DNA from: a virus | Direction: 5' to 3' (one strand) | DNA: 43,645 nucleotides | IMG/VR virus record: IMGVR_UViG_3300001847_000418 | Location: 1-43,645 of that record | Part shown: positions 2,676-42,440 of the stretch, in pieces | How positions within the stretch are numbered: position 1 is the stretch's first letter | Layout of the letters: each line of letters opens with the position of its first letter | Program-made: the position numbers and the translations under genes | Notes under the pieces: model-generated | Told to the model about the DNA's origin: nothing | Databases searched by the model: none | Seen by the model: the letters and a program-made list of their open reading frames with translations, nothing else

Positions 2676-2683
2676 AGGGACAC

Positions 2684-3577: not shown

Positions 3578-3586
3578 GAGTACAGC

Positions 3587-4423: not shown

Positions 4424-4431
4424 GAGGGACA

Positions 4432-5271: not shown

Positions 5272-5274
5272 CCG

Positions 5275-5742
5275 ATGATGGAAGTATTCTCTCCGTGGGA
5301 CGGTAAACCGAAAGCCGGTGATCCGATCTCAACAGTTTCGTTCGCAGCGACAGCCCGTGGTGGTTACTACAGCGAGTCGTCGATGTCAGTTAACGTCGTC
5401 GTACCAGCCGGTCGTATTCTTGTGTTGACGGGGTTGCACGTTAGAAACATAAACGGTTACACGACGTACCCGTATAACTACCCTAGCGGCAGCATCACCA
5501 TGATCCAAAACTCGACTGCATACGCCACGTTTAATGGTCACGCGGCTAAACATGAGACGACTCAAGGAATAGTTTCAGCGAGTGCTACTGGGTACCAAGC
5601 CGCACCGGCGACTATGAGCGATTCCTGGCAGGGTATGGACGTAATTAGTGGAGGCGCCAGTGGTGTCACGTTGACGTTGACTGTGTACGCTAACTCTTAT
5701 TACACAGGCGCGACAGCATCAATCGGTGGTTACCTGATCTAA
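5275..5742 (+). CDS. Small beta-rich virion protein
   Basis: A 155-residue protein, rich in Gly, Ser, Thr and Tyr. Two consecutive ATG codons (5275, 5278) follow GGAGG near the end of the previous gene. It starts with a short conserved-looking Trp motif (SPWDGKPKAGDP), followed by alternating polar/hydrophobic strands and a C-terminal TGATASIGGYL. The profile resembles small trimeric appendage proteins of phage tails, but no family was recognised. Function is inferred only from position. Confidence 0.55.
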   Translation: MMEVFSPWDGKPKAGDPISTVSFAATARGGYYSESSMSVNVVVPAGRILVLTGLHVRNINGYTTYPYNYPSGSITMIQNSTAYATFNGHAAKHETTQGIVSASATGYQAAPATMSDSWQGMDVISGGASGVTLTLTVYANSYYTGATASIGGYLI

Positions 5743-5754
5743 AGGAGACAGACT

Positions 5755-6051
5755 ATGTGGATTATCACCAAACCCAACGGTAACCAGACATACTGCGGTA
5801 ACCGCCGGGATCACGACATCGTTGCTGCCATCAACAACGAGTTTGGTGAGTGCAAGTTCCACTGGATTCCCGATGGGCAGTGGACGGATCTCACCACCGA
5901 GAACATCACCTATGACGAGGAGGGCAAAGCCGACCCAGCAACCTGCCGTAAATGGACCTTCGACGCCTCGACCGGTACGCTCACCGTTACTGACATGTCC
6001 GACAAACCGAAGGTGATTGCCACCTTCAAAGCTGAACACGTCACTGCGTAG
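5755..6051 (+). CDS. Small hypothetical protein in tail region
   Basis: A 98-residue protein after a strong AAAGGAGA site. It begins MWIITKPNGNQTYCGNRRDH and has a beta-strand/turn pattern with two Trp-Thr-Asp motifs. A single compact domain seems likely. There is no signal peptide or membrane segment. Family unknown. Its place between virion genes and the holin candidates makes it either a minor structural protein or a lysis-cassette accessory. Confidence 0.5.
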   Translation: MWIITKPNGNQTYCGNRRDHDIVAAINNEFGECKFHWIPDGQWTDLTTENITYDEEGKADPATCRKWTFDASTGTLTVTDMSDKPKVIATFKAEHVTA

Positions 6052-6062
6052 GAGCTACGGTT

Positions 6063-6350
6063 ATGTCTGATGATAACGCCCATCTTTGGGAGGTACTGCA
6101 AGAGGTCCGAGACAACGTCCAGGCAACACGCGCTTTCCTCGAAGGCGGCATCATGCCTGACGGCACCCACCGCGACGGTTTCATCCAAGACCACAACCGA
6201 TTGAAAACAACCGTTGCTGAACTCAAGGACGTTCACGGTCAAACCAAAGAGAAGCGGTGGGCGCTGATCGCTGCCATGCTCGCCGCCGTTATCACCAAGG
6301 GCATCGACGTTGTCGTCAGTTACATGAGCGGAAAGGGTGTGCACCAATGA
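6063..6350 (+). CDS. Membrane protein, haemolysin XhlA-like / holin-partner candidate
   Basis: A 95-residue protein with a polar, helical N-terminal two-thirds (LWEVLQEVRDNVQATRAFLE, about 8-27, with coiled-coil character). A single hydrophobic segment follows at about 67-88 (RWALIAAMLAAVITKGIDVV). This layout, a coiled coil followed by one C-terminal membrane helix, is that of XhlA-type lysis accessory proteins. The TGA overlaps the ATG of the next hydrophobic protein (ATGA), as in paired holin cassettes. The pairing and the endolysin 2 kb downstream support a lysis role; exact function is inferred. Confidence 0.5.
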   Translation: MSDDNAHLWEVLQEVRDNVQATRAFLEGGIMPDGTHRDGFIQDHNRLKTTVAELKDVHGQTKEKRWALIAAMLAAVITKGIDVVVSYMSGKGVHQ

Positions 6351-6589
6351 ATCACGATCTCGTTACACAGATGGTCACGTTACTCGGTCAGTTCCTTGTT
6401 GATAATGCTGATACTGTATCTGGCAAAGTCGTTGCTGCCGCACCTGTTGCTGGGGTGGTTGCCAGCGGGTTGGTCGAGAAAGCGTGGGTCAAAGTTGCGG
6501 TGACCGCTGTCGGTAGTCTGCTGACTGCGCTGTTCAATAACAAACCCAGTGACAAGCCGACTGTGTTCGACGATCAGCAGAAGGGTTGA
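6347..6589 (+). CDS. Small hydrophobic protein, holin candidate
   Basis: The ATG at 6347 overlaps the stop of the preceding gene, giving 80 residues. A longer frame opening at 6257 has an Arg/His-rich N-terminus typical of an out-of-frame read of its neighbour and was not used. Residues about 20-45 are a hydrophobic Ala/Val/Gly stretch and about 49-66 a second one (VKVAVTAVGSLLTALF), ending in a polar tail (DKPTVFDDQQKG). Small size, one or two membrane segments and a charged tail fit a holin that would let the endolysin cross the membrane. The family was not identified. Confidence 0.5.
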   Translation: MNHDLVTQMVTLLGQFLVDNADTVSGKVVAAAPVAGVVASGLVEKAWVKVAVTAVGSLLTALFNNKPSDKPTVFDDQQKG

Positions 6590-6598
6590 TGCACAGCC

Positions 6599-7639
6599 GT
6601 GACTCAGATAATCCTCAACGAAACCTCACCGATCCATGGGCGTGTTCGGTTGATCGAGGTGGACGACGACGGCAACCAAGAGGTGGTTGTCGATCATCGA
6701 AACCTCATCACCGATGTGTTCATCAACTCCATCATCTCGCGTATCCTTGGCACGGCGACTGCCCGAGACACCATGGCTATTACACAGCAGGCGCTGGGTA
6801 GTGGTGCAGTACCTCCGGTCAGCACCGGCACCAACCTTGCTGCCGAGTTTCACCGCAAGGTGATCGACAACAAGGCACGGTCAGCAAACCAGATCATCCT
6901 GTCCACCACGTTCTCCTCGCTTGAAGCGAATGTGCCACAGGGCAGGATCACCGACAGGTATGCCGGTACAGCCAACCAAAGCAAGAACACCTGGACCATC
7001 GCACCCTACCTATCCGGTCTGTCGCCGTTGGACACAGCCTACGTCTCTAGCTACTTCAAGCGGTTCCGTGAGGGCGACCTCGTTCGGATTGGCCTGGGCT
7101 CAGGGAACAAAACCTACGTCTACGCCAATCTAACGAGTGTCATCTACAATGCGGCGGCGACCAACTGCGTCATTACAATCAGCCCCGATCTCACCGAGTA
7201 CCCGCCCAACCTGGCAACCGTCGACGGTCTTATCAACGAGGCCGGTGTCTACGCTGACTCCCCCAACCTGCTCACCGTACAGGCATCACCAGCCCCTACT
7301 GCCGTGACATTCGCCGTCGATGATGCGTCCTTGTTGGCTCAAGGCGACCAGATCATTCATCGCAAAACAACCACCGACATCAACGGAGCAACATTCGAGA
7401 ACAGCCAAATCGGTACCATTCTGTCAATCACCGGTAATACTATCACTCTGACAAGCCCTGGACTGACGCCGTTATTCCCTGTCAACGGTTCGTCGCCAGC
7501 GCCAACCGTAACTGCACCAGTAGCAGGGGATAAAATCTGGGCCGGTCGCCTGTATAATTGGGTGAGCGGTCTGCGATTCGTTAAGTCCAGACAAAAGAAC
7601 GTGCTGGTTGAGACTATCTTCACGACAGGGAATGGCTAG
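6599..7639 (+). CDS. Virion/tail adhesin-like protein, paralogue of 2684-3577
   Basis: A 346-residue protein with a GTG start; AGAAGGG lies about 13 bases upstream, a long spacing. The opening (RVRLIEVDDDGNQEVVVDHR then NLITD) and the ending (NWVSGLRFVKSRQKNVLVET) match the same regions of the protein at 2684-3577. The middle is largely unrelated apart from a shared 'f.v.d.s.l..gd.i' repeat-like strand pattern. It is likely a second tail-tip or receptor-binding component that shares anchoring and C-terminal pieces. Function is inferred from the paralogy and the neighbours. Confidence 0.65.
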   Translation: MTQIILNETSPIHGRVRLIEVDDDGNQEVVVDHRNLITDVFINSIISRILGTATARDTMAITQQALGSGAVPPVSTGTNLAAEFHRKVIDNKARSANQIILSTTFSSLEANVPQGRITDRYAGTANQSKNTWTIAPYLSGLSPLDTAYVSSYFKRFREGDLVRIGLGSGNKTYVYANLTSVIYNAAATNCVITISPDLTEYPPNLATVDGLINEAGVYADSPNLLTVQASPAPTAVTFAVDDASLLAQGDQIIHRKTTTDINGATFENSQIGTILSITGNTITLTSPGLTPLFPVNGSSPAPTVTAPVAGDKIWAGRLYNWVSGLRFVKSRQKNVLVETIFTTGNG

Positions 7640-7912
7640 ATGAGCGAATCGACGACGATCCGTATTGGTCCGAACGACACTACCAACGACCTTGCAGCGT
7701 CAATCCACAACAGCTTTCTGGTCACCCGCAAGGTGACCATTCTTACTGATGACGCCAACCAATACAATCTCGCCGTCAAAGCCGCTGCCATTGTGCGGCG
7801 GGAGCTGATACCATTGGGCGTGGATCTCGTGTGCTGTACGTTCTTCCAATTCAACGACGGACGTTACCAGGACCGGGAACAACTCCAGTACGTTCTCACC
7901 GACAAACGCTGA
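7640..7912 (+). CDS. SpoVS-like protein (stage V sporulation protein S family)
   Basis: A 90-residue protein that starts immediately after the previous stop. It shows the SpoVS pattern: an N-terminal strand (TIRIGPNDTTNDLAASIHNS), then NLAVKAAAIVRRELIPLGVD and LVCCTFF, then a DGRY turn and a final strand. SpoVS itself has the equivalent NQAVKAxAIARxFVAPxGVD-type core. SpoVS is a small dimeric protein with an Alba/IF3-C-like nucleic-acid-binding-type fold, known from endospore formers and thermophiles. Its role in a phage tail block is unknown. A second, more divergent copy lies at 17315-17599. Confidence 0.7.
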   Translation: MSESTTIRIGPNDTTNDLAASIHNSFLVTRKVTILTDDANQYNLAVKAAAIVRRELIPLGVDLVCCTFFQFNDGRYQDREQLQYVLTDKR

Positions 7913-7950
7913 TCGACACTCCCACCTATTCCATGTAGGAGGTCGAGAGC

Positions 7951-8349
7951 ATGATCTGTCGCGTCAATGTCGCGGTAAAGATCCCTCACTGGACCCCTCG
8001 TGCACAGGTCACCTTGATTGGTGACCTGTCGTCATGTGGGCAGAACCTGACTGAGGGAACAGTTACATTCCACAAACCCGGTCGACTCACCGTCTCTGTC
8101 ATCAGCGGCGGTGATATGTGGCAGGGTGAAATCATTGCAGAGGGTGAGCCTGTTGCCGTTGAACAACCCGTCGAACCATCGGTCGAACAGCCAGTCGAGC
8201 AGTCGACCGAGCAACCAGCCGAACAGCCAACCGTCGTGGCTGAAGTCGTCGAAGAAAAAACGGAAGAAGCCCAAGAACCGGAACACTCTGAAGAAACCCC
8301 AACCGTTACCTCCCGTCGAGTGGGACGGTTCGACCGCTATGCGAGGTAA
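7951..8349 (+). CDS. Hypothetical protein with Glu-Gln-Pro repeats
   Basis: A 132-residue protein with an AGGAGG site. The first 60 residues form a compact beta-like domain (MICRVNVAVKIPHW to WQGEIIAEGE). It is followed by a low-complexity run of V/S/T-E-Q-P units at about 70-92, an acidic stretch (EVVEEKTEEAQEPEHSEE) and a basic end (RRVGRFDRYAR). The repeat region is probably an extended acidic linker. No family was recognised. It sits directly before the endolysin. Confidence 0.5.
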   Translation: MICRVNVAVKIPHWTPRAQVTLIGDLSSCGQNLTEGTVTFHKPGRLTVSVISGGDMWQGEIIAEGEPVAVEQPVEPSVEQPVEQSTEQPAEQPTVVAEVVEEKTEEAQEPEHSEETPTVTSRRVGRFDRYAR

Positions 8350-8351
8350 TC

Positions 8352-8798
8352 ATGCAGCTAAGTGAACACTTCACCTTAGCCGAGATGACCGTCAGCGAGA
8401 CGGCAGCTCGCCAAGGACTGAACAACACCCCGGATGCAGACAGCACTGCCAACTTGAAGCGTACCTGCGCCATGCTGGAGAAGGTGCGTGCCCTGGTCGG
8501 TGGTCCTATCGTGGTGACCTCGGGTTACCGTGGACCAGCGGTCAATGCTGCGGTGGGCGGGAGCAAGACCAGTGCTCATATGACTGGACGTGCTGCTGAT
8601 ACCAACCGTCCTGGGCTCACACCTCGGCAGTTTGCTGAGAAGGTCAAGCCCAAGATGAAAGAGTTCGGGATCGACCAGATGATTCTGGAGTTCGATAGCT
8701 GGGTGCATCTCGGCATTGCCCGTGTCGGTGAAACGCCCCGCTGTCAGATCCTGACCATCAACAACAGTACCGGCGGTTATGTCGAGGGGCTGTGCTAA
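8352..8798 (+). CDS. Endolysin, peptidase M15A-type D,D/L,D-carboxypeptidase
   Basis: A 148-residue single-domain enzyme expected to cut peptidoglycan peptide bridges for lysis or tail entry. Motifs of the zinc peptidase M15A family are visible: SGYRGPAVNAAVGGSKTSAH (about 57-76), then MTGRAAD, and SWVHLGIA. Likely Zn ligands are His76 and Asp83 (SxHxxGxAxD) and His119 (WVH). The length is typical of a catalytic domain without a cell-wall-binding domain. The stop overlaps the next small frame (TAATG). No export signal is seen, so it would need a holin such as the candidates at 6063-6589. Confidence 0.88.
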   Translation: MQLSEHFTLAEMTVSETAARQGLNNTPDADSTANLKRTCAMLEKVRALVGGPIVVTSGYRGPAVNAAVGGSKTSAHMTGRAADTNRPGLTPRQFAEKVKPKMKEFGIDQMILEFDSWVHLGIARVGETPRCQILTINNSTGGYVEGLC

Positions 8799-8923
8799 TG
8801 CTCTATACAAATCCGACACTTCGTGCGATAGTCGAATCGGGCACACCTTGCCCGACTGCTGACAGCCTCGATGACACCGCTCCGACGCTGAAGGTAGCTG
8901 TTGCGAACAGGCGGCCTGGATAA
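8798..8923 (+). CDS. Short coupled ORF between endolysin and 8923 gene
   Basis: An open frame of 41 codons starts inside the endolysin stop (TAATG) and ends inside the start of the next gene (TAATG). Such perfect chaining favours translation. The product begins MLYTNPTLRAIVESG and ends VAVANRRPG. It has no membrane segment or recognised motif. It could simply be a leader that keeps ribosomes moving to the next gene. Confidence 0.45.
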   Translation: MLYTNPTLRAIVESGTPCPTADSLDDTAPTLKVAVANRRPG

Positions 8924-9177
8924 TGGCCACCTTCGCCCCCGAACTCGTCATTGACCACGGCATTCAGCCTCAGATCGACGGTCATACAAACACCTTTCAG
9001 ACGCAGTACGACTACATCCCCGGAACATTAACCATGTACTGGAACGGCCAAGCTGCCGTCCACACCAAGGGGCTCTTGGAGTTGTCGCACAATACGTTCA
9101 TTCTCGAGCCCGATGTCCACGGCCAACTCCTCTACCCGACACCTGACGACAATGTATGGGTCACTTACATGGCCTAA
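8923..9177 (+). CDS. Small tail-fibre-associated protein
   Basis: An 84-residue beta-rich protein. The element 'Q.DYIPGTLTMYWNGQAAVH' followed by a strand and 'DNVWVTYM' resembles the phage tail-fibre module 'y.pGt..vylNG....' that ends many adhesins. The last 70 residues of the large fibre at 9198-12680 show the same layout (ANMMVWANGMMLTQGAGYDY). It probably forms a small capping or knob subunit of the fibre. Placement just before the fibre gene supports this; direct evidence of interaction is absent. Confidence 0.55.
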   Translation: MATFAPELVIDHGIQPQIDGHTNTFQTQYDYIPGTLTMYWNGQAAVHTKGLLELSHNTFILEPDVHGQLLYPTPDDNVWVTYMA

Positions 9178-9197
9178 CGTAGAGGAGATCGAACAGG

Positions 9198-12100
9198 ATG
9201 GCTTTCACCATTTTTGACTTGAAGAAACAAGTCAAAGCCCCCGCCACTTACCGTTCCGACATCGCTCGGGTAGACTTCCGCTCGCAGACGAACATGGAAG
9301 GTTTCTCCCATGTCCTGCTGAGCATGTTCGCAGACTTGCTGGGTGAGCAGGAGTTCGACACGGCTCCCGCTGACACCATCCACAGCCTGCATGGCCGGCT
9401 GAACACGGTTGAAGGCGATGATGCGACCTCTGGGTCTATCGCCAAGAGCCTGAAGGATGCCAAGGCTTACACGGACGGCGCCATCACCAGCTTGGTGAAC
9501 GGCGCTCCTGCCGTGCTCGACACTTTGAAAGAGATTGCTGATGCGTTGGGCAATGATCCCAACCTGAGCGGCACCCTTGCCACTCAGATCAGCGGTCTGG
9601 GTACTCGTCTCGACACCATCGAAGGTGACGCGCAAACTTCTGGCTCGATCCAGCACGCCCTGTCGCAGGCTGAAGCCTACACCGACAGCGAAGTGTCGAG
9701 CGAAGCGTCGGTTCGTGCCGCCGCTGATGCCAGCGTTCGTGCTGACCTGAGCGCCGAAGCCTCTCGGGCTGAGGATGCTGAAGCCAGCTTGGCCAATGCC
9801 GTGTCTGCGGAAGCCTCGGCCCGCGATGCTGCTGATGCCAGCGTTCAATCCAGCCTGTCCAGCGAAGTTAGCCGCGCCCAATCGGCGGAAGCCAGCTTGG
9901 CTGGTGAAATCTCGGCTGAAGCCTCGGCTCGGGATGCTGCTATCTCGGATGCGATGAACCAGGAAACCTCGGCGGCTGTCAGCCTTGCTGACGGTTTGGC
10001 TGCTGAGATCAGCCGGGCCACCTCGGCTGAAGAGTCGGTTGCTGTCAGCTTGGGTTGGGAAATCAGCCGTGCTCAAACGGCTGAAGTTGAACTGTATACC
10101 AGTTTGACTAATCACGAAAATGCCAACACTGATCCGCATGGTCAAACGCTGACTCAAACCAACATGCAAGTCAGCAACCAGCTCACGGTCGGTGACCCGA
10201 ACACGGGTGTCAACGCTCTGCGGATTGATCCGAATGGCCCAGATGGTATGGCGGTTGTCGTCGGTGACTACAACGCCTTTGCTGTTCAAGGGATGTCTGG
10301 TCTTGACGTTCGCCTGCCGGCCACGTTCCAGAAGTACGCTGCTTTTTACAACAATGTGAACTTTGTTGGGTACAATTCCAACGACCCAAGCCAAAGCGCG
10401 CTTGTTGACTTTGCGACTAATGCAAGATTTGAAGCCCCGGTTCAAATTGGTACTCTTGGGCAAAACAGCCCGATGGCTCCTGGGTTTGAAAGTTTCCTAG
10501 ATGCCGGTACTGCTACTTATGATAGTAACAGTGCGACGTTAACTGTAACCGGCACTACGAACGGCGGTAACGGTTGGGGTTACAAGGTTGGCACGATTGA
10601 TGCTAACCCCGCTAAAGGCACTTGGTCGGTGTCGGCGTCTATCTCTTCTAACGGCACTTTCTTAGGGTTTGTCAGCACGCCTACTCGTGCTAATCTTAAC
10701 AAAACCAGTCAAGATTTTGACCGGTTTGATTACGGGGTTACTGTTCAGTACGACCCGACTGTTCCTCAAACTGCGTCTTTGTCGTTGCAAACGCCCGGTG
10801 GCGAATACCAAGTCATTCAAGTGCCTAGTTGGCAACTTGGGGATGGAAACTGGTTTGACAATGAAAGTGGACGCCCGTATCCGCTAGAGTGCCGGTTTGA
10901 CCAGGGAAACAAACTCAAACTGCAAATGTCTCCTGCTGGGGTAGTTAGCGTTTGGGTCGGTCCTTATCAGTTGGCTGAGTTCACCACCGTTGCCGATGTT
11001 CGTTGGCTGAACGGCTCTAACGGCTGGTCGATTGTGGTGGGTGGCAATCAATACGGGTCTACTGATGATCACACCGTAAGCGGCTTGTCGGTTGTCACCG
11101 GCACCAATCAGACTGGTGATCCTGGTATTCTTGATGTTGAAACGGCTGCTAAGTTCGCTTATGATGTGTCGTTCAAAGGTCCGACGTTTACGGTTGGCGA
11201 CTTCAGCAGGCCGGATACCACCATCAACATCGGTGCCAGTGATACCCACCTTGTGAACTTGCACGGCTCTGTGCGGTTCAAAGGCTACAGCGTTGATGTT
11301 CAGAACTTCTTGTCTGCCAATCGCATGGGTTTTGATCGGATGTTTGGCCGAGAGGCTAATATCCGTGAAATCAACATTCGTGACAATGGTTGGATCTATG
11401 TTCCTGGGGGTGAAATCAACGTCGATGGCGGCGGTACGATTTACACTCAAAAGAACTTTGAAACCAACACGGGCGGCGACATCAAGGTTGGTAACGACCT
11501 TGTTTGGCGCAACTTTAACGGCAATCAAGGTAACGAAGTTCGTTTGATTGATTACCTCAATGGTATGAATCAAACGATCAACGACAATCAGAACAACGAC
11601 AACATGCGGATTGTTGATCTGAATGATCGTGTTACCACACTCGAAGGCTCGGCTGGAGTGTCTGGTTCGGTCGCCAACGCTCTGTCCGTGGCGGAAGCCT
11701 ATACCGATCAGAAGATCAGCGACCTCATCAATGGTGCGCCAGAAGCTCTGGACACCCTGAAGGAGCTGGCCGACGCCCTCGGTAACGACGCCAATCTGGC
11801 TGCGACGATCACGACGCAACTCGCCGGTGTCTCTAGCGACATCAGCGCCGAAGCGTCTGCTCGTACCTCGGCTGACGCCTCGCTGGAGTCCAGCCTGAGC
11901 ACCGAAGCCTCGGCCCGTACTGCTGCGGATGCCTCGCTGGCGTCTGACATCAGCTCCGAAGCGTCGGCTCGCGCTGCTGCGGTTTCCTTGGAAGCCTCCA
12001 GCCGTGTTGCTGGCGATGCTTCTCTGGAGAGCGCCCTCAGTGCTGAAGCGTCGGATCGGGCCGCCGCGGTTTCTTCCGAAGCCTCGGCTCGTATCGCTGC

Positions 12101-27143: not shown

Positions 27144-27179
27144 GGCGGTGAAACCCGCCCATGGGTGTGATTGATTATA
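27144..27179 (-). promoter_or_regulatory. Gap with candidate -10 box and short hairpin before SNF2 gene
   Basis: On the - strand TATAAT stands at 27174-27179, overlapping the stop of the upstream glycosyltransferase gene. No clear -35 lies 16-18 bases before it. A 5-bp stem (GGCGG 27144-27148, CCGCC 27155-27159) follows in the leader, ahead of the AAGGAGA site of the SNF2 gene. Promoter activity is a guess from the hexamer. Confidence 0.25.
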
Positions 27180-28356
27180 CCTGATACAGATTGGTTGCCG
27201 TGTTGTACGACAGGTTGTGGTTACCTCCGTTGAACAGACCGTCGATCAGGCGGTCATACGTCTCGATCAGATCCGGGTTGGTGGATTCGTAACGGTGAAG
27301 TACGGTGCGGTTCCGCTGGTTGTACTCCTCGATCCGGCTGTCGTGGTTGAGCAGGATGTCATCCAGTTGTCTGGCACCCTCTACGGTATCACCTCCTTCG
27401 TAGTAATAGGCAAGGTCACGGACCATCGGTGCGTTGTGCAGCAGTGGGTAACCCATGTATGCACAGTCGAGGTACAGGTAGTTCAACGGGTTGACCACCT
27501 GATGACTGATCAGGACGTCGGCGTACTGCGACATGAAGAAGGCGGTTTGGTACCGGCTCTCGGCGGTGATCTTCTTGTCGGCGTACAGGTCGAATGATTT
27601 GACGACGTCCATGAACTCTTTGTTGGTGCCCAGCTTCTCGGCGTTGGTCAGCATCACCTTGCGGATGTGCTGCTTACCGACAGGGCCACGGTAACTCTCC
27701 TCGGCAACCATCAAGGGGATCATGCAGAACTTGATTACGTTGAGGTTCGGCTCCATGATGCCGATCACCTTCTGATCGGACGGTTGGTAGCCGTAATCCT
27801 TGGCATACTTGCCGGCCTTGAAGCCCTGGTGGATGTCAACCAGCCCACCCAGGATGTACTTCTTGTCCCAGACAAAGGGTACGGTCAGGGTATTGACGCG
27901 GTGCATTGTGCGGTAGAAACCGGCGTTCGTCTCATGCTGCTGGGGGATGTACCAGCATTCATCGAGCACCTTCTCGTATCGATACGGTTTGCGATCACCA
28001 CTACCGAGCAGCACCGACTCAGCAAACAGCATGTAATCGTTGCCGCAGCGGTAGCTTACGATCCGTTTGTCCGGTTGGCTGCGGAACTCAGCGAGTACCT
28101 TGTCCTCTACCTGCGCCCCCATCAGGAACACCAGATCCATCTCGTGGATCTTCTCGTTGCACGGGTAGACCGGGATGTCCCGCAGGTAATCCGGCTTGGT
28201 GGTCAGGTCAGCACCCAGGGTGTTGAGCAGGTAGACTTCATAGCCACGGCTCGACTGCTTCAACAGCTTGTAAAAGATCAGGACGTTCAGCTTGATGCCG
28301 TTCGTCCAGATGCTGTCGGTGTTGGTCTTAAGACCAATGGTGATCCCGATCTTCAT
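27175..28356 (-). CDS. DUF2827-type putative glycosyltransferase
   Basis: A 393-residue protein. The start MKIGITIGLKTNTDSIWTNG followed by IKLNVLIFYKLLK matches the DUF2827 family opening ('igiti......siwsnGi.qN...l..lL'). The length also fits that family. DUF2827 proteins have a GT-B-like two-domain layout and are generally taken as glycosyltransferases. The C-terminal half (VLISHQVVNPLNYLYLDCAY, then MGYPLLHN) resembles the sugar-nucleotide half of GT-B enzymes. Within a phage replication block it might modify DNA bases, host surface sugars or a phage protein; none of these can be shown here. The start overlaps the ferritin-like stop (ATGA). Confidence 0.7.
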   Translation of the reverse strand: MKIGITIGLKTNTDSIWTNGIKLNVLIFYKLLKQSSRGYEVYLLNTLGADLTTKPDYLRDIPVYPCNEKIHEMDLVFLMGAQVEDKVLAEFRSQPDKRIVSYRCGNDYMLFAESVLLGSGDRKPYRYEKVLDECWYIPQQHETNAGFYRTMHRVNTLTVPFVWDKKYILGGLVDIHQGFKAGKYAKDYGYQPSDQKVIGIMEPNLNVIKFCMIPLMVAEESYRGPVGKQHIRKVMLTNAEKLGTNKEFMDVVKSFDLYADKKITAESRYQTAFFMSQYADVLISHQVVNPLNYLYLDCAYMGYPLLHNAPMVRDLAYYYEGGDTVEGARQLDDILLNHDSRIEEYNQRNRTVLHRYESTNPDLIETYDRLIDGLFNGGNHNLSYNTATNLYQV

Positions 28357-36305: not shown

Positions 36306-36566
36306 TTACACGCTATAGCCCAACGCTTTGTCGTATGCCATTGCTTCGTAATCGGACTGGACCATCTTGGTCCAATCTTCCTTCGTGGTCGTTTCGTATT
36401 TAACGAACTCCTCGAACCGTTCGACACGGTAAAGCTGACCGTCCATCTCTACCAGCCAGTATTTGTCTCCGTATAAATAGTGCTCTGCGACGAACTCACC
36501 CTCAGCAATGAGGATGTACAACCGCATAGCTGTGCGCTCATCAGCGCAGTCCGTGAAGTTCACCAT
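36306..36566 (-). CDS. Small hypothetical protein
   Basis: An 86-residue protein with AGGAGGTG before its ATG, and a TGCCGT/ACGGCA stem just before that site. Aromatic-rich beta start (LYILIAEGEFVAEHYLYGDK), then a helical part (TKEDWTKMVQSDYEAMAYDK). No family was recognised. It is the first gene, reading right to left, that still shows the intergenic cassette. Confidence 0.6.
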   Translation of the reverse strand: MVNFTDCADERTAMRLYILIAEGEFVAEHYLYGDKYWLVEMDGQLYRVERFEEFVKYETTTKEDWTKMVQSDYEAMAYDKALGYSV

Positions 36567-36577
36567 GTGTCACCTCC

Positions 36578-36648
36578 TGCCGTGTTAACGGCACAGTAAT
36601 AACCGAGAGCATTAGCCCTCTGTCCAACCCACCGCACGGGTGGGCTGG
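36578..36648 (-). promoter_or_regulatory. Intergenic cassette a: long stem plus short stem at ribosome binding site
   Basis: The long stem (36624-36648, about 9 pairs with one mismatch, GCACG loop) lies 8 bases past the stop of the upstream gene. The short stem (TGCCGT/ACGGCA, 36578-36593) abuts GGAGG of the next gene. The GTCATGGG motif is absent here; TTGGACA and TTATTA stand between the stems and could be promoter-like. Confidence 0.5.
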
Positions 36649-36656
36649 CCGGAACG

Positions 36657-37163
36657 CTACATCTCGCTGCAACCTTCGATGTCTGTCTCGTAGTGCTCAG
36701 TACCTTCGTCGCTGATGTCGGCTATCTCACCGTCCTCGATACCGATGTTGCTGTAACTGACCGATTCGTCGGCGCTGATATTATCGAGCTGATCCTTGAT
36801 GGATTCCGCGACGTCATCCTCCTGACCCGGCTTGCATGTGAACTCAACCGTCACCCGGCGGGTGTATGTCACGGTGAACTCTGCCGTGTACGCCTTGGTC
36901 GCATGGTTACTGAACCACCAGTCCACTGCATGGGTGGCAATGGCTTTGCTGATCTCGTAATCGTCAGCATCCAACTCGTCGGCGTGCTCCACCACCCGCT
37001 CCAGTTCACGCCAGCGCAGACGCAAACCGAGCATACCCTCTTCGATCACCTTGTCGATGAGGTCGATGTCGCTGGGCGTCAGGTCATCGAGGTCGTTCGA
37101 CCCCGTGTACAGCCGCTTGATTGCGACGAGGGCGGCGGCTGTGTCCTTGGTGGTGTCGTTCAT
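36657..37163 (-). CDS. Hypothetical acidic protein
   Basis: A 168-residue protein; ATG 37163 has GAAGGAGA upstream, behind a CCGG stem. An in-frame ATG at 37241 also has an ideal site (AAGGAGGAAGT) and would add MPQCACTACVSTDILIVPVA and 6 more residues, so a longer or dual form is possible. The protein starts with helices (DTAAALVAIKRLY) and ends in a beta part (AEFTVTYTRRVTVEFTCKPG) and an acidic tail (EDGEIADISDEGTEHYETDI). No family was recognised. Confidence 0.6.
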   Translation of the reverse strand: MNDTTKDTAAALVAIKRLYTGSNDLDDLTPSDIDLIDKVIEEGMLGLRLRWRELERVVEHADELDADDYEISKAIATHAVDWWFSNHATKAYTAEFTVTYTRRVTVEFTCKPGQEDDVAESIKDQLDNISADESVSYSNIGIEDGEIADISDEGTEHYETDIEGCSEM

Positions 37164-37175
37164 GGTGTTCTCCTT

Positions 37176-37192
37176 CGCCGGTGCTACCGGCA
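37176..37192 (-). promoter_or_regulatory. Cassette b short stem
   Basis: GCCGG/CCGGC stem with a 5-base loop, directly before the GAAGGAG site of the 37163 start. It is the same type of element as the short stems of the other right-arm cassettes. Confidence 0.45.
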
Positions 37193-37263
37193 CAATAAGA
37201 ATGTCTGTACTAACGCACGCTGTGCATGCACATTGTGGCATACTTCCTCCTTGACAACGGCCA

Positions 37264-37294
37264 ATCAAAACGGGTACGCTTGATAGCGTACCCG
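37264..37294 (-). terminator. Terminator after gene 37308-37757
   Basis: A perfect 9-bp stem CGGGTACGC (37271-37279) / GCGTACCCG (37286-37294) with a 6-base loop. On the - strand it is followed by TTTTGATT. It lies 14 bases past the stop at 37308. This is the most terminator-like stem among the right-arm intergenic elements left of 42000. Confidence 0.7.
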
Positions 37295-37307
37295 CAACTG
37301 CTTGCCT

Positions 37308-37757
37308 TTAGAACGACTGGACTTCACCGACGCTGTCGGTATCGACCCCACTAAAGAAGCTCTTCAACCGAGCAACCGTAACCGGATCGAACGTCACCGA
37401 CTTACCTGCGATCTCACCGGTAACAGTCCAGATCCAAGCGTAGTCCACCGTGCTATAGGCGTACCCGTCTGTGCGGCTTACCGGCTCAACCGGGACAGCC
37501 ATCAGCTTAATCCCAGCCGTCTCGATCACCCTGACCGGCTCAACCTTGACAGGCAGGATGCTGGACGGCTCACCGTTGGTGAACATGACCTCGTGATACT
37601 TACCGTTGCTGTCGGTGACGACCGCAACGGCGCTGTTGTGATAGTCACCGTCCTTGTAATAACGAACGGTCGACCGTGCGAATATGGTGTACTCCACGCC
37701 GTCGAACGTGACGACGTTAGCCTTGACCGTCTTGCCATTGATCTTCGTAACTCCCAT
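37308..37757 (-). CDS. Hypothetical beta-rich protein
   Basis: A 149-residue protein with a GGAGG site directly after a TGCCGG/CCGGCA stem. Beta-rich throughout (ANVVTFDGVEYTIFARSTVR; NSAVAVVTDSNGKYHEVMFT), with a second half around DYAWIWTVTGEIAGKSVTFD. No recognised family, no membrane segment. Confidence 0.6.
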   Translation of the reverse strand: MGVTKINGKTVKANVVTFDGVEYTIFARSTVRYYKDGDYHNSAVAVVTDSNGKYHEVMFTNGEPSSILPVKVEPVRVIETAGIKLMAVPVEPVSRTDGYAYSTVDYAWIWTVTGEIAGKSVTFDPVTVARLKSFFSGVDTDSVGEVQSF

Positions 37758-37770
37758 GATGTTTGCCTCC

Positions 37771-37847
37771 TGCCGGTATCAACCGGCAACTTGCATATGC
37801 AGGGCACGGTTGCCCATGACAACGGCCCACCTTTGAGGGGTGGGCCG
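37771..37847 (-). promoter_or_regulatory. Intergenic cassette c
   Basis: Reading leftward: a perfect 9-bp stem CGGCCCACC/GGTGGGCCG (37823-37847), the motif TTGTCATGGG, a small GGGCA/TGCCC stem (37802-37815), then TGCCGG/CCGGCA (37771-37788) abutting AGGAGG. It has all parts of the recurring right-arm cassette. Confidence 0.6.
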
Positions 37848-37870
37848 CTGGCTGGATGACCGTTAGTTAG

Positions 37871-39004
37871 TTAGACCGTCAGGATTTTCTTGGCCAGTGC
37901 AAGCGCCTGGTCTTTCTTATCCTGAGAGTAGCCGTTGATGTTGGATGCCAGCCGCGCATCGAACACAGCTTCCGGCGTTTTGTCACCACGGATCGTCGGC
38001 ACATGCTCGTGGTCGAGGTAATAGGTGATGGCGTTGACCGCCGACCACAAGGTGCCGGCGCTCATGTCGGCACCGGGCTGCGTTTCGAGCAGCGTATCGA
38101 GGCGCTCGCTTGCCTCGCTGCGACCGTCACCATACTTTTCCATAGCCATGCGGAACAACTCCTGTTCCTCACGGAACCGGAGTTGCAACTTGAAGTCTGT
38201 GCTGTCGTCACCGGTCATGGCCGGGGCAGTCGGCTCGACAGGGCGTCCACGCTTGGGGAACACCTCATCGAAGATGTACTGCATCTGGCGCTGATTCAGT
38301 TCCTTGCTGGCCATGGCATTGCAGAACTCGCGGAACTCTGCTGCCTCCTTCTGAATGAGTCCCAGCTCCTGCATGATGCCAGCCGTGGCGACGTGGATAC
38401 CTTTGGTGTGGCGCAGCTTGATAACTTTGGTGGCCTGCGCCTTACCGAAGTTGATCGTGTTAGCGCATACCGCACGGATGGCGGTGATGAAAGCCCACAA
38501 CGCTGTACCGTCGTGGCCGGAATGGATGGTCAGCACCAGAATCATACCGTCGTCGGTCTTGCCGATGACAAAGCTCTCACCGATCTGCAAGGACGCACCG
38601 AACTGTGCGCCCGACTTCATGATGAACGCCGTGTCGATGATGCGCTCCTTGCCGACGATGGCGCGCAGGGCGTCGGCAAAGTTCAACACGGTATAGCTCG
38701 CCGGCTGTACCCCGACGCACACCGGCTTCATCCAACCGGACTTAGTGTGATGCTTCTGCATCAGGGACTTGTAACCGGTGTCGACGTAGATCTTCTCGCC
38801 GTCAGGCCCGGTCGAGGCAACACGCACCGGGATCTCAACGGTGGGCGCGAAGATCGTGGGGCACGACTCGATCAGCTCATCCGGGGTGGCCAGCTCGGGC
38901 CGGGGGACGAAACCGCCGTGCCAAGTGTCCCCGAAAAGGGAGCAGAAAGTGCCGTGTGCGGTAACAAGATCGACCTTTTCCAGGTTGTCGATGAGATGTG
39001 CCAT
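37871..39004 (-). CDS. DUF932 phage/plasmid-related protein
   Basis: A 377-residue protein; ATG 39004 has AGGAGG upstream. It follows the DUF932 (phage/plasmid-like TIGR03299) layout: DTGYKSLMQKHHTKSG, then FVIGKTDDGMILVLTIHSGH, IRAVCANTINFGKAQATKVI and LRHTKG. The conserved 'R.vCaNt...a......i.HT' element is present. This family is widespread on phages and plasmids; its function is not established, though some members have been linked to defence or recombination systems. It is the largest protein of the accessory arm. Confidence 0.8.
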   Translation of the reverse strand: MAHLIDNLEKVDLVTAHGTFCSLFGDTWHGGFVPRPELATPDELIESCPTIFAPTVEIPVRVASTGPDGEKIYVDTGYKSLMQKHHTKSGWMKPVCVGVQPASYTVLNFADALRAIVGKERIIDTAFIMKSGAQFGASLQIGESFVIGKTDDGMILVLTIHSGHDGTALWAFITAIRAVCANTINFGKAQATKVIKLRHTKGIHVATAGIMQELGLIQKEAAEFREFCNAMASKELNQRQMQYIFDEVFPKRGRPVEPTAPAMTGDDSTDFKLQLRFREEQELFRMAMEKYGDGRSEASERLDTLLETQPGADMSAGTLWSAVNAITYYLDHEHVPTIRGDKTPEAVFDARLASNINGYSQDKKDQALALAKKILTV

Positions 39005-39025
39005 GTCTGGCGTCCTCCTACTATC

Positions 39026-39101
39026 CCCGGCATACATACCGGGTCAGCTATACGTCAGGCTGGTGAGCCTGCAACGCCCCACCTCTGTCACAGGTGGGGC
39101 G
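39026..39101 (-). promoter_or_regulatory. Intergenic cassette d
   Basis: The long stem is CGCCCCACCT/AGGTGGGGCG (39075-39101, loop CTGTCAC on the + strand), then a small AGGCT/AGCCT stem, then CCCGG/CCGGG (39026-39043) five bases before the AGGAGG of the DUF932 gene. The loop is the same as in cassette h although the stems differ. Confidence 0.6.
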
Positions 39102-39108
39102 GTACGGA

Positions 39109-39330
39109 TCACCCCCAATCCGAGAAAACATAGCCGTTGCGGGACACGAACAGCCGGGTCGGCAACCCGGCTGACAGGCCAAAGCCTGATTGAAACGCCT
39201 CTCCGCAACGGAGCAGACGATCCCGCACCAGGGCGGGATAGCCCGTGAGGGCCTTCGCTGCGATGTTCACGTCCGCAGGGAGAAGCCCCCGCTGGACGAG
39301 GTTGCGAACGATAATGGTCTGGTTTTTCAT
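39109..39330 (-). CDS. Small hypothetical protein
   Basis: A 73-residue protein from ATG 39330 with GAGGAGG upstream, directly behind a TGCCGG/CCGGCA stem. Helical first half (NQTIIVRNLVQRGLLPADVN), then PALVRDRLLRCGEAF and a C-terminal strand (TRLFVSRNGYVFSDWG). No family was recognised. Confidence 0.6.
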   Translation of the reverse strand: MKNQTIIVRNLVQRGLLPADVNIAAKALTGYPALVRDRLLRCGEAFQSGFGLSAGLPTRLFVSRNGYVFSDWG

Positions 39331-39341
39331 GATTCCTCCTC

Positions 39342-39397
39342 TGCCGGTATTCCGGCAACTTGTGATGAACCCATGACGGCCCACCTCGAAAGATGGG
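39342..39397 (-). promoter_or_regulatory. Intergenic cassette e
   Basis: The long stem is CCCACCT/AGATGGG (39380-39397, one mismatch) 11 bases past the upstream stop, then GTCATGGG, then TGCCGG/CCGGCA (39342-39357) abutting GAGGAGG. Confidence 0.55.
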
Positions 39398-39407
39398 ATG
39401 GTTGTTA

Positions 39408-39701
39408 TTACGATCGAGGCAGCTTGGTGATGATCCGCTCGGCGGCGCCCTGTCCAGCGTCACGGTCGTACATAGCGACCCGCATCGTGTCCTTGCTGAT
39501 GTCGGACTTCAGCGGGTGGCCGAACAGGTAGTCGAAGTAGAGGTCGCCTCCGCACTTCATGCGGTGGTCGATGACTTCTTGAGCTTGTTCCTTGGTGATG
39601 GCTCCACGATCTTGCAGCATACCCATACCGATTGCGGGTGTGCCGTTGTGGAGAGCAGCCAGAAGTTCAGCCTTGTCGATGCCTTTGATGTCGATTTCCA
39701 T
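39408..39701 (-). CDS. Hypothetical phage protein with C-terminal YDRD motif
   Basis: A 97-residue protein with GAAGGAGA before ATG and no cassette in front. It starts MEIDIKGIDKAELLAALHNG, continues IGMGMLQDRGAITKEQAQEV and has DYLFGHPLKSDISKDTMRVA, then MYDRDAGQGAA. The pattern 'm.i.i.gi....ll..l......G.G.l......i...ea...i......fDYl.Gr..k.di........yDrd.G' is shared by a common family of small phage and bacterial hypothetical proteins. The function is unknown. Confidence 0.65.
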   Translation of the reverse strand: MEIDIKGIDKAELLAALHNGTPAIGMGMLQDRGAITKEQAQEVIDHRMKCGGDLYFDYLFGHPLKSDISKDTMRVAMYDRDAGQGAAERIITKLPRS

Positions 39702-39728
39702 GGGTTTTCTCCTTCACTAGTGATGGGG

Positions 39729-39890
39729 TCACCGGATCAAGAATGGGGGCAACTCCACCCCCGTCGAGGTCACGACGGTGACCTCATACCCGCGAGACTG
39801 AAGCTCGCGGGTAACAACCGCGGCCCCACGCGGGGACCACGAACCGACGAACTGAGGGATGCCATCGTAAAAAGCATAGACGTGGATCAT
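39729..39890 (-). CDS. Small hypothetical protein (53 residues)
   Basis: A frame from ATG 39890 behind AGGAGG at 5-base spacing, ending at TGA 39729-39731. The product is MIHVYAFYDGIPQFVGSWSP followed by a helix-strand part (AAVVTRELQSRGYEVTVVTS) and FLIR. The beta-alpha-beta pattern and an upstream GCCCG/CGGGC stem like its neighbours support a real gene. No family was recognised. Confidence 0.65.
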   Translation of the reverse strand: MIHVYAFYDGIPQFVGSWSPRGAAVVTRELQSRGYEVTVVTSTGVELPPFLIR

Positions 39891-39904
39891 GTCTGCCTCC
39901 TATC

Positions 39905-39981
39905 GCCCGCATGTACCGGGCCACTTGATTGTACTACCGGTTGGTCTGGAGTCATCCGTCGTACTTGACGGATGACTCCAG
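39905..39981 (-). promoter_or_regulatory. Cassette f with 15-bp perfect stem over a stop codon
   Basis: A perfect 15-bp inverted repeat (39946-39960 and 39967-39981, loop of 6) spans the last codons and the TGA (39952-39954) of the upstream gene. Further on, GCCCG/CGGGC (39905-39921) stands just before the AGGAGG of the 53-residue gene. The long stem thus doubles as coding sequence on one arm. Confidence 0.55.
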
Positions 39982-40260
39982 CCATCGCCATTCCGCCCGC
40001 TCGCGGGCGACGGTTGTGAGGATCGCTGCCGCCTCTGAGGCGTCGGCGGTATCGTGGGATATAACCCCACGATTAGCGGCGAACCGCTGCCGCTTAGCGA
40101 GATCCCATGCGCGCGCCTCCTCGTCGCGGGCCTGCTCGAGGAGGAGTCGCAGATCGTCGATCACCTTGTCCGACTCGGTGGTCGGGCGGGTGTTTTCACA
40201 CACCCACCGACCCCCGCGGACGATGCGGACGGAATTGTCCGCATTGTAAATAACTTCCAT
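39952..40260 (-). CDS. Hypothetical helical protein, N-terminus MEVIYNA
   Basis: A 102-residue protein from ATG 40260 with GAGGAGG upstream. It starts MEVIYNADNSVRIVRGGRWV and continues as a long helix (KVIDDLRLLLEQARDEEARA; RQRFAANRGVISHDTADASE), ending WRWLESSVKYDG. The first seven residues and the DNA around the start equal those of the next gene to the right (40387-40797), although the proteins differ otherwise. Confidence 0.6.
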   Translation of the reverse strand: MEVIYNADNSVRIVRGGRWVCENTRPTTESDKVIDDLRLLLEQARDEEARAWDLAKRQRFAANRGVISHDTADASEAAAILTTVARERAEWRWLESSVKYDG

Positions 40261-40271
40261 GACTCCTCCTC

Positions 40272-40378
40272 CCGGCTGATACCGGATCATACTGAGGGTC
40301 GCCGTTCAAAGGCACCCATGACAAAGCCCCGGCCTTTGTACGGTCGGGGTTCTGACGTGGATGCCCCCTTGCGGGGGC
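40272..40378 (-). promoter_or_regulatory. Intergenic cassette g, copy of cassette i
   Basis: Stems in order leftward: GCCCCC/GGGGGC (40363-40378), a 10-pair stem with GU pairs (40325-40351), then the TTTGTCATGGG motif, then CCGG/CCGG (40272-40285) before GAGGAGG. The part 40295-40378 is almost the same as 41127-41205 apart from the inner stem-loop. Confidence 0.65.
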
Positions 40379-40386
40379 TGGTTGGG

Positions 40387-40797
40387 CTAGTATTTCGTAC
40401 CGTAGCGGTACGCAATACTAGCCCCATGAAAGGTCAGGTACTCGGCCTTCCAGCTTTGTCCCTGGCGCATCGAGCCGAAGTGCTTCAGCTCGATTCCGAA
40501 GTGACTTACCAATTCGGCATTCGCCGGGTTGGCGAGGTGGGGCAGGGGCCGCCCCGACAAGGACGTGTAATGCGTCCCATCTTCGTATTCATCGAAGAGA
40601 AGGGCGGCCCCATTGACCGCAGCGATCCCCCCTTCGGGGGAGGGCACGCCGTGGCCCTCGACAAACGCGGCGATTGCCGCCCGGATATTCTCGACCGATG
40701 CTCCCGCCTCGGCGGCCATGACAACCCCATCCAGGCAGACCCCTTCCGGGGCCTTTCCCGTGATGGCATCGATAACCGCATTGTAAATAACTTCCAT
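40387..40797 (-). CDS. Hypothetical protein, N-terminus MEVIYNA
   Basis: A 136-residue protein from ATG 40797 with GGAGGGGAAG upstream. The first residues MEVIYNA equal those of 39952-40260. The continuation VIDAITGKAPEGVCLDGVVM, AAEAGASVENIRAAIAAFVE is helical; later DEYEDGTHYTSLSGRPLPHL and an end AYRYGTKY are beta-like. No family was recognised. The product differs from its neighbour after the shared opening. Confidence 0.6.
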   Translation of the reverse strand: MEVIYNAVIDAITGKAPEGVCLDGVVMAAEAGASVENIRAAIAAFVEGHGVPSPEGGIAAVNGAALLFDEYEDGTHYTSLSGRPLPHLANPANAELVSHFGIELKHFGSMRQGQSWKAEYLTFHGASIAYRYGTKY

Positions 40798-40811
40798 GAC
40801 TTCCCCTCCTC

Positions 40812-40893
40812 CCGGTCAACCGGAACAGTCGGCAGGCTCATCAGTACGGACATGCCAAGTCCGCAGACCCGCGCCTCTGTCACAGGCGCGGGT
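40812..40893 (-). promoter_or_regulatory. Intergenic cassette h
   Basis: The long stem ACCCGCGCCT/AGGCGCGGGT (40867-40893, loop CTGTCAC on the + strand) lies 7 bases past the upstream stop. The short CCGG/CCGG stem (40812-40823) stands just before GAGGAGGGG. The GTCATGGG motif is missing. Confidence 0.6.
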
Positions 40894-40900
40894 TTCGCCC

Positions 40901-41089
40901 CTATTCGAAGATCACATAGGCCGGTCGGCCCACGATCCGCTCAGCCTCGGCGTTGATCGCCGCGACGGCTTGTTTCCGACTCGGAAACAAGCCGAGATAA
41001 AAGCCGTTAGCCGGCCCGGGGTCCGCCGGATCGTCGGCCCATACATGACCAACTACACCGTCGTCGATTTGATAAGCGGCATGATACAC
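40901..41089 (-). CDS. Small hypothetical protein (GTG start)
   Basis: A 62-residue protein; the GTG at 41089 has GAGGAGG 6 bases upstream, directly after a GCCGG/CCGGC stem. It starts VYHAAYQIDDGVVGHVWADD (Met in vivo), continues NGFYLGLFPSRKQAVAAINA and ends in a strand (RPAYVIFE). The pattern of strand, helix, strand is compact. The open frame extends further 5' through the cassette but has no ribosome binding site there. Confidence 0.65.
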   Translation of the reverse strand: MYHAAYQIDDGVVGHVWADDPADPGPANGFYLGLFPSRKQAVAAINAEAERIVGRPAYVIFE

Positions 41090-41102
41090 GGGTAACCTCC
41101 TC

Positions 41103-41205
41103 GCCGGATTCCGGCACAACAATAACAGGGTCGCCGTCCAAAGGCACCCATGACAAAACCCCGACCGTAGCCGGGGTTCTGACGTGGATGCCCCCTTGCG
41201 GGGGC
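41103..41205 (-). promoter_or_regulatory. Intergenic cassette i, copy of cassette g
   Basis: GCCCCC/GGGGGC (41190-41205), AACCCCG/CGGGGTT (41157-41178), TTTGTCATGGG, then GCCGG/CCGGC (41103-41115) abutting GAGGAGG. The region 41127-41205 repeats 40295-40378; the inner stem has changed on both arms while still pairing. Confidence 0.65.
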
Positions 41206-41213
41206 GTGGATGA

Positions 41214-41579
41214 TTAGTCGTCGTTAGGCGACTGAAAACCCGCCCACTCGGTGAGCACCGGGTACTTTGTGGGGTCCAGTTGGACCACCACAAGGCGGCT
41301 GTACCACTCACTCCCGTAGCTGTCACACCCACGGGGTTCGATCACGAAACTCACCGTGCCCCACACGTCCCCGTGCGGGGCGATGTAGAGTCCGGTGTCC
41401 AGCCGGACCCGATCAAGTTCCGCGAACACCTCGTCCGTCAATGGGCGGGTGCAGTGAGCACCGTGCCCGTGCTGGACGTGGCTAAACCTCACTCCCGAAA
41501 AATCCGGCACGAAGCCGGGGAGGTAGAACTCGTCGCACCGACGAAACATGTTCATGTTGACGCTGATCGTCTCTTCCAT
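41214..41579 (-). CDS. Hypothetical protein
   Basis: A 121-residue protein from ATG 41579 with GAGGAGG upstream, behind a GCCGG/CCGGC stem. The start is EETISVNMNMFRRCDEFYLP, followed by a His-rich turn (RFSHVQHGHGAHC) and beta strands (GTVSFVIEPRGCDSYGSEWY; SRLVVVQLD). Three Cys and several His could bind metal. No family was recognised. Confidence 0.6.
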   Translation of the reverse strand: MEETISVNMNMFRRCDEFYLPGFVPDFSGVRFSHVQHGHGAHCTRPLTDEVFAELDRVRLDTGLYIAPHGDVWGTVSFVIEPRGCDSYGSEWYSRLVVVQLDPTKYPVLTEWAGFQSPNDD

Positions 41580-41586
41580 GGTAAAT

Positions 41587-41665
41587 CCTCCTCTGCCGGA
41601 TTTAACCGGCTCATCTGATGTCAGGGCATGAGCCCATGACAGCCCACCCCTCTCACGGGTGGGCT
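41587..41665 (-). promoter_or_regulatory. Intergenic cassette j
   Basis: The long stem AGCCCACCC/GGGTGGGCT (41641-41665) follows the upstream stop by 8 bases. Then GTCATGGG, a small GGGC/GCCC stem (41624-41635), and GCCGG/CCGGC (41595-41610) next to GAGGAGG. The 27 bases 41587-41613 recur exactly at 41973-41999. Confidence 0.6.
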
Positions 41666-41673
41666 GGCTGGGA

Positions 41674-41967
41674 TCACGCGAACAGGTGAACCGGGTCAAC
41701 TGACGCTGACGTCGGGCACCCCGGCATATACTCTGCGGCCTCCTGCCGCAGCAGATCGATGGCTCGGCGGGCGGCATCAACCGTGCGGCACGTCTTACTG
41801 TACTCGACGTAGCCGTTGTCGGCCCCGTCATCGAACACTGTTAAGGAAGACAGCCAGACAATGTCAGGCCGATTGTCTAGGAGCGTCGTGCTGACTTTCT
41901 CGAAACTCTCCGAGCTGGGGTCCGTGTAGCACTCGAAAACGCCATATGTGTCACTCTTGTACCGCAT
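41674..41967 (-). CDS. Small hypothetical protein
   Basis: A 97-residue protein from ATG 41967 with GAGGAGG upstream. Aromatic strand start (MRYKSDTYGVFECYTDPSSE), then a middle (LDNRPDIVWLSSLTVFDDGA) and a helix (CRTVDAARRAIDLLRQEAAE). The layout resembles small phage proteins that copy a beta-alpha fold. The function is unknown. Confidence 0.6.
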   Translation of the reverse strand: MRYKSDTYGVFECYTDPSSESFEKVSTTLLDNRPDIVWLSSLTVFDDGADNGYVEYSKTCRTVDAARRAIDLLRQEAAEYMPGCPTSASVDPVHLFA

Positions 41968-41972
41968 AGGAA

Positions 41973-41999
41973 CCTCCTCTGCCGGATTTAACCGGCTCA
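41973..41999 (-). repeat. Exact 27-base copy of the cassette j ribosome-binding module
   Basis: Bases 41973-41999 equal 41587-41613. They hold GAGGAGG plus the GCCGG/CCGGC stem (41981-41996). Here no long stem or GTCATGGG stands directly upstream; a frame ending at 41997 overlaps instead. Confidence 0.75.
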
Positions 42000-42176
42000 A
42001 TAGATTATCGGACGCTCACCGCCCGTGTGAACGGTCACCACCCCCGTATGCCAGGGTAGCTTCTGCCTGACGACAGCGACGTCTTTAGCGCCGGTTGGGA
42101 TAAGCGTATAGGCTAAGTGCCGTAACCTGTATCCCCGGTAACCGGGCGTCACCGTCACCCTCGTGACCGCTCGCAC
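41997..42176 (-). CDS. Possible small basic protein
   Basis: A frame of 59 codons from GTG 42176 reads VRAVTRVTVTPGYRGYRLRH, LAYTLIPTGAKDVAVVRQKL and ends TGGERPIIY. The residues look like a natural beta-rich basic domain, but no clear ribosome binding site exists. The open frame continues upstream through terminators, which is not credible as coding. Evidence rests on composition only. Confidence 0.35.
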   Translation of the reverse strand: MRAVTRVTVTPGYRGYRLRHLAYTLIPTGAKDVAVVRQKLPWHTGVVTVHTGGERPIIY

Positions 42177-42181
42177 GGACG

Positions 42182-42213
42182 GGCGGATTGTACCATTCTT
42201 GGGACAATCCGCC
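42182..42213. promoter_or_regulatory. 10-bp inverted repeat
   Basis: GGCGGATTGT (42182-42191) and ACAATCCGCC (42204-42213) form a perfect inverted repeat with a 12-base spacer. On the - strand TACAAT, a possible -10 box, falls in one arm and TTGACG lies 20 bases before it, a long spacing. It could be an operator over a promoter for the leftward genes. Confidence 0.4.
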
Positions 42214-42220
42214 GTCAATG

Positions 42221-42259
42221 GAAAAGCCCGTCCGTACCCTATGCAGGATACGAACGGGC
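42221..42259 (-). terminator. Second leftward terminator-like stem
   Basis: On the - strand GCCCGT (and inner CGTA pairs) ... ACGGGC (42226-42259) is followed by TTTTCC. It directly follows the stem at 42269-42287, so the two form a tandem terminator. Confidence 0.6.
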
Positions 42260-42287
42260 GAAAAGAAAGCCCCGTACCTAACGGGGC
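42259..42287 (-). terminator. Strong leftward terminator
   Basis: A perfect 7-bp stem GCCCCGT/ACGGGGC (42269-42275, 42281-42287) with a 5-base loop, followed on the - strand by TTTCTTTTCG. It would end transcripts coming from the gene at 42497-43579 or from a promoter in the gap. Confidence 0.8.
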
Positions 42288-42440
42288 AAAAGAGCACCTT
42301 TCCATGCCGCTCAACGGGTTACACTTGTGAACAAGCCGCCGCCTGTGAGCGGCGCAAGTGTAGAAGCAAAGCATTCCGCCGTCTAAACGGTGAGCGTCAC
42401 AGTCTCACCGTCACAGGGTTAAACCCCGGCGGTATATAAC
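42259..42440 (-). ncRNA. Candidate structured RNA or long structured 3' region
   Basis: Between the stop of the 42497 gene and the strong terminator the - strand has no credible coding frame. It forms several stems: ACGGTGAG/CTCACCGT (42387-42411) and a two-part stem ACACTTG/CAAGTGT enclosing CGCCGC/GCGGCG (42321-42361), then the terminator stem. GTTATATA near 42432-42439 might act as a promoter element. This could be a small RNA or just a structured 3' untranslated region; the sequence alone does not decide. Confidence 0.3.

Follow-up and report, generated by a model that had tools for sequence, protein, structure and literature searches.

Near-identical intercistronic hairpin modules in an uncharacterised tailed phage, with a probable template-switch difference between the two copies

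Two near-identical intergenic modules lie on the minus strand of the window, by which we mean the whole 43,645-base virus fragment analysed here, from an uncharacterised tailed phage. On balance, we favour the reading that they are duplicated or converted copies of one intercistronic element, that their inner hairpins came to differ through a template switch, and that their role is the punctuation of mRNA. What the sequence itself shows is the two copies, their modular layout and a closer match for a reverse-complement copy; we infer replication as the cause, the direction of the change and the function in mRNA.

The left part of the window carries, on the plus strand, genes for tail and other structural proteins. 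The right part carries, on the minus strand, small genes without assigned function and a replication set (DNA polymerase, DnaB-like helicase, primase, UvsX-like recombinase and thymidylate synthase). A search with the structural protein at 801–2675 found a contig, L014, that is 99.99% identical to window positions 1–12088 and runs leftwards past the window; the intergenic module is absent from it. The leftward extension (L014 1–9200) brings with it a tape measure protein of >3300 aa with a transglycosylase SLT domain. This very long reading frame to the left of the window had been suspected to encode a virion RNA polymerase, which was rejected once it was recognized as the tape measure protein. 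The near-identity of L014, with its long tape measure gene, marks the window as one piece of a siphovirus-like phage genome. No near relative was found in the phage collection, from which very near records may be omitted, and searches with neighbour proteins and with the DNA polymerase likewise yielded no close relative. Elsewhere on the minus strand, 27175–28356 encodes a full-length DUF2827 protein (E 1e-91), to which tblastn matched nothing among 50,697 phage records.

Copy A (84 nt, 40295–40378) lies between the genes at 40797–40387 and 40260–39952, and copy B (79 nt, 41127–41205) between those at 41579–41214 and 41089–40901. BLAST aligns them in the same orientation with 89% identity (E 2.3e-26), in agreement with an earlier note on this DNA, which had reported two near-identical copies of about 80 bases at these positions. 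Outside the core of the inner hairpin, the 79–84 nt contain just two single-base differences; this supports the recent duplication also put forward there, or a conversion. The strings common to A and B have no further occurrence in the window. Homologues of the module were not found among phages (blastn), plasmids, viral contigs (three patterns) or genome contigs; 10 pattern matches in viral contigs proved to be unrelated sequence. Each copy begins 8 nt past a minus-strand stop codon, and the ribosome-binding site of the next gene lies downstream. A coding origin was considered and set aside, since the 5-nt length difference between the copies speaks against conservation of a reading frame.

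On the transcribed (minus) strand, each module consists of three hairpins, and the sharp ends of the repeated unit coincide with hairpin ends. The order is a 5' hairpin, GCCCCC-GCAA-GGGGGC (40363–40378 in A, 41190–41205 in B), an inner hairpin closed by CCCCG..CGGGG, and a 3' hairpin, GGGTGCC..GGCGACCC (40296–40317 in A, 41128–41149 in B). The GCCCCC pairing described previously as an outer stem does exist, but as a separate local hairpin upstream of the inner one. The core of the inner hairpin is CCCCGACCGTACAAAGGCCGGGG in A (40327–40349), a quasi-palindrome that leaves an A-C mismatch on the minus strand, and CCCCGGCTACGGTCGGGG in B (41159–41176), where the minus-strand loop is C(UACG)G. It also forms the tip of a longer quasi-palindrome with 21-nt arms, GGCATCCACGTCAGAACCCCG and CGGGG(C/T)TTTGTCATGGGTGCC, which provides an alternative fold (40311–40365 in A, 41143–41192 in B). 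In predicted folding stability of the minus strand, both copies surpass 200 of 200 dinucleotide shuffles (z of -3.4 for A and -4.8 for B). Together with the array of hairpins in which they sit, this makes a role of the modules as structured RNA plausible.

The earlier note had held that the inner stem changed on both arms and yet remained paired, and had taken this as a sign of selection for RNA structure. A pair-by-pair comparison of the minus strand does not bear out either statement. Pairs 1–15 and 17–21 of the long stem are the same in A and B, and the CCCCG/CGGGG pairs are unchanged. Copy A has A-C mismatches at pairs 16 and 22, where B has A-U and G-U, respectively, and it has C-G at pair 24, where B has U-G; loop positions differ too. 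Thus, of the three pairs that changed, two are mismatches in A, the stem of B is better paired than that of A, and no Watson–Crick pair has been replaced by another. Given this lack of a compensatory pair, and the better fit of a single event described below, the difference between A and B is not by itself evidence of selection on RNA structure.

The cores on the plus strand, CCCCGGCCTTTGTACGGTCGGGG in A and CCCCGACCGTAGCCGGGG in B, are more alike when one of them is inverted. Aligned to the reverse complement of the A core, the B core is free of mismatches and requires a single 5-nt gap (score 14), whereas direct alignment requires two gaps as well as mismatches (score 8.5). Four-point template switches starting from A were scanned, with the best plain 5-nt deletion as the benchmark. 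The best switch product, A[:31]+rc(A[44:56])+A[48:], is exactly 79 nt long and has 2 mismatches to B, one of them in the flank, while the best plain deletion leaves 6; the switch also covers the G/A difference beside the stem. When random octamers replaced the inner octamer of B, with the pairing pattern kept or not, one switch came within 2 mismatches in 0.4–0.9% of cases, a null p of about 0.004–0.009 that is modest and was calculated after the pattern had been noticed.

The proposed mechanism is that, during DNA replication of an A-like copy, the template would be switched at the quasi-palindrome. With the right arm as its template, the polymerase would synthesize the left arm and some of the loop anew; the hairpin would thereby lose 5 nt and its arms would become complementary, and one transition would follow. 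The best switch product places the putative template, comprising the right arm with some of the loop, at 40339–40350 of A (plus strand), and the switch scan places the putatively re-copied left arm and loop (ACCCCGACCGTA) at 41158–41169 of B (plus strand). Template switching at quasipalindromes is known to homogenize the arms of inverted repeats and to invert the spacer (PMC8604942), and can yield paired change without selection, so mimicking compensatory mutation in RNA hairpins (PMC8794818). Here, as in described quasipalindrome mutations (PMC8794818, PMC8604942, PMC7202029), an imperfect inverted repeat has one arm that matches the reverse complement of the other, mismatched arm positions have become paired (A-C to A-U and A-C to G-U), and a multi-base change with an inverted or shortened loop can be had in one step. 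The present case differs in that the event would lie between paralogous copies in one phage contig, with no outgroup to polarize it. The change from A-like to B-like is the most economical direction: the reverse switch fits worse, with a best score of 74 (maximum 84) as against 75 (maximum 79). Both this direction and the number of events rest on parsimony, since just two copies exist.

Two other accounts of the difference were weighed. An inter-strand template switch, or recombination at the CCCCG/CGGGG arms, may have inverted the whole loop, and 5 nt would have been lost in an independent deletion. Spacer inversion of this kind is documented (PMC8604942), the inverted core matches B without mismatch apart from the single gap, and of 8192 pairing-compatible octamers just 5 are accessible in that way. 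This fits as well as the single switch, but it costs the deletion as one more event and needs asymmetric boundaries or a further change for the G/A beside the stem, and we regard it as possible but not probable. The account given in the earlier note, separate substitutions with pairing kept by selection on the RNA, appears decidedly unlikely. A stable minus-strand hairpin is indeed kept in both copies, and the C(UACG)G loop of B belongs to a very stable class of RNA tetraloops. Against this, the conserved helix is invariant, the changed pairs include no exchange between Watson–Crick pairs and are mostly mismatched in A, and clustered change of this sort is better explained by a single event. 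If the template switch is accepted, A and B provide a worked case of paralogous hairpins that seem 'compensated' after one replication slip, and a caution for covariation arguments built on two copies.

As to role, the modules most likely act as mRNA punctuation, that is, as structured intercistronic spacers; they sit between co-directional genes within an array of hairpins. Their hairpins would protect or separate the neighbouring messages and would hold upstream structure off the next ribosome-binding site. Like intrinsic (Rho-independent) terminators, A and B have a GC-rich hairpin past the stop codon followed by a few U, but the U run is just 3–4 long, and neither was among the 13 sites flagged by a strict terminator scan (criterion: a GC-rich stem, then 5 or more T in 8). 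Two strong terminator-like hairpins are present in tandem at 42226–42287 (minus strand).

The long arms could instead constitute an RNase III-type processing site that separates messages, a function that would fit either origin of the A/B difference. When the full spacer is folded, one long stem is favoured in both copies (17 pairs in A, 21 in B). However, for the module alone the three-hairpin fold is better by about 2 kcal/mol, and the long arms, being identical, offer no covariation; we consider such a site unlikely. A role in RNA would be dispensed with altogether if the copies were boundary repeats of a mobile or shuffled cassette containing the genes at 41089–40901 and 40797–40387. The repeats are in the same orientation, 832 nt apart, enclose two genes and a ribozyme candidate, and stop sharply at hairpin ends. 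In addition, nearly the same 34 nt, comprising a ribosome-binding site and the residues MEVIYNA, open two genes that are otherwise dissimilar (40239–40272 and 40776–40809). No recombinase site, empty site or relative was found, though, and neighbouring spacers have the same layout yet are unduplicated, so that this explanation too seems improbable. In kind, A and B are ordinary structured elements of phage intergenic regions, set in an unusually regular array.

In this array (36500–42400, minus strand), a short GC hairpin, mostly CCGG-loop-CCGG, touches the Shine–Dalgarno sequence at most gene starts. By a stem criterion that was picked after the pattern had been noticed, a hairpin lies just upstream of the Shine–Dalgarno sequence at 12 of 14 starts led by one, compared with 1.2 expected by shuffling; in the rest of the window, 8 of 41 such starts qualify, compared with 3.4 expected. 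CCGG is present on both arms in nine of the 12 qualifying starts, while those at 39890 and 36566 have other GC stems. The qualifying start at 38149, internal to the gene at 39004–37871, is probably not a real gene start. In five spacers, A and B included, GTCATGGG stands directly 3' of a strong hairpin. The spacer at 41580–41673 (minus strand) has the same layout of hairpin, GTCATGGG, hairpin and a CCGG hairpin at the Shine–Dalgarno sequence, and those at 39331–39407 and 37758–37870 (both minus strand) have a hairpin, GTCATGGG and a CCGG hairpin at the Shine–Dalgarno sequence. The octamer occurs elsewhere too, and a looser form of the motif is mildly enriched across the window.

The array resembles the SAS/ESAS elements of cluster K mycobacteriophages (PMC3203893), which are likewise repeated spacer elements confined to the non-structural half of the genome and carry an inverted repeat immediately 5' of the ribosome-binding site. 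It differs in the short GC stem that touches the Shine–Dalgarno sequence. Membership of that family was rejected: the 13-bp GGGATAGGAGCCC, which precedes start codons in those phages, had no match here with up to 2 mismatches allowed.

A probable type II hammerhead ribozyme is encoded in the spacer between copies B and A (40827–40900, minus strand), directly past a stop codon. It matches the full Rfam Hammerhead_II model (positions 1–66) with 35.3 bits (E 0.0013 for the window), which is 1.7 bits short of the gathering score of 37; at the gathering score, Rfam gave no match in the window. The core is intact, with GAAAC, a GUC cleavage triplet and CUGAUGA. Six base pairs can form between the loop of stem I and the tail (UUGGCA/UGCCGA; shuffled p 0.03), and a pseudoknot of loop I with the tail has been described for type II hammerheads (PMC3088659). 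A purpose-built hammerhead descriptor missed this covariance-model match, gave one spurious match elsewhere and was dropped. For hammerheads that flank prophage genes, the role proposed is to cleave long transcripts of phages, so that mRNAs of gene length result (PMC3088659). Modules A and B share with these intergenic type II hammerheads the arrangement of tandem hairpins in a spacer between small phage genes, but lack the GAAA and CUGANGA core; they were rejected as hammerheads themselves, there being no Rfam match over either at E up to 5. It is very improbable that the spacers with a hairpin-GUC-A-hairpin layout (A, B and the three others with GTCATGGG) derive from the hammerhead layout in a decayed or protein-assisted form, making up a cistron-separating cleavage array in which one copy only has kept the full core. 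The array as a whole, with its hairpin spacers, hairpins abutting Shine–Dalgarno sequences and probable hammerhead, would lend itself well to tests of how phages cleave and insulate multi-gene messages.

Stem III of the hammerhead candidate is one of a pair of related hairpins, at 40858–40891 and 39066–39099, the latter in the spacer 39005–39108. The loop region, CCTGTGACAGAGG, is identical in the two, and the stems differ by four paired changes. As an illustration of paired change, this pair is better than A versus B, although here too the difference could have other causes.
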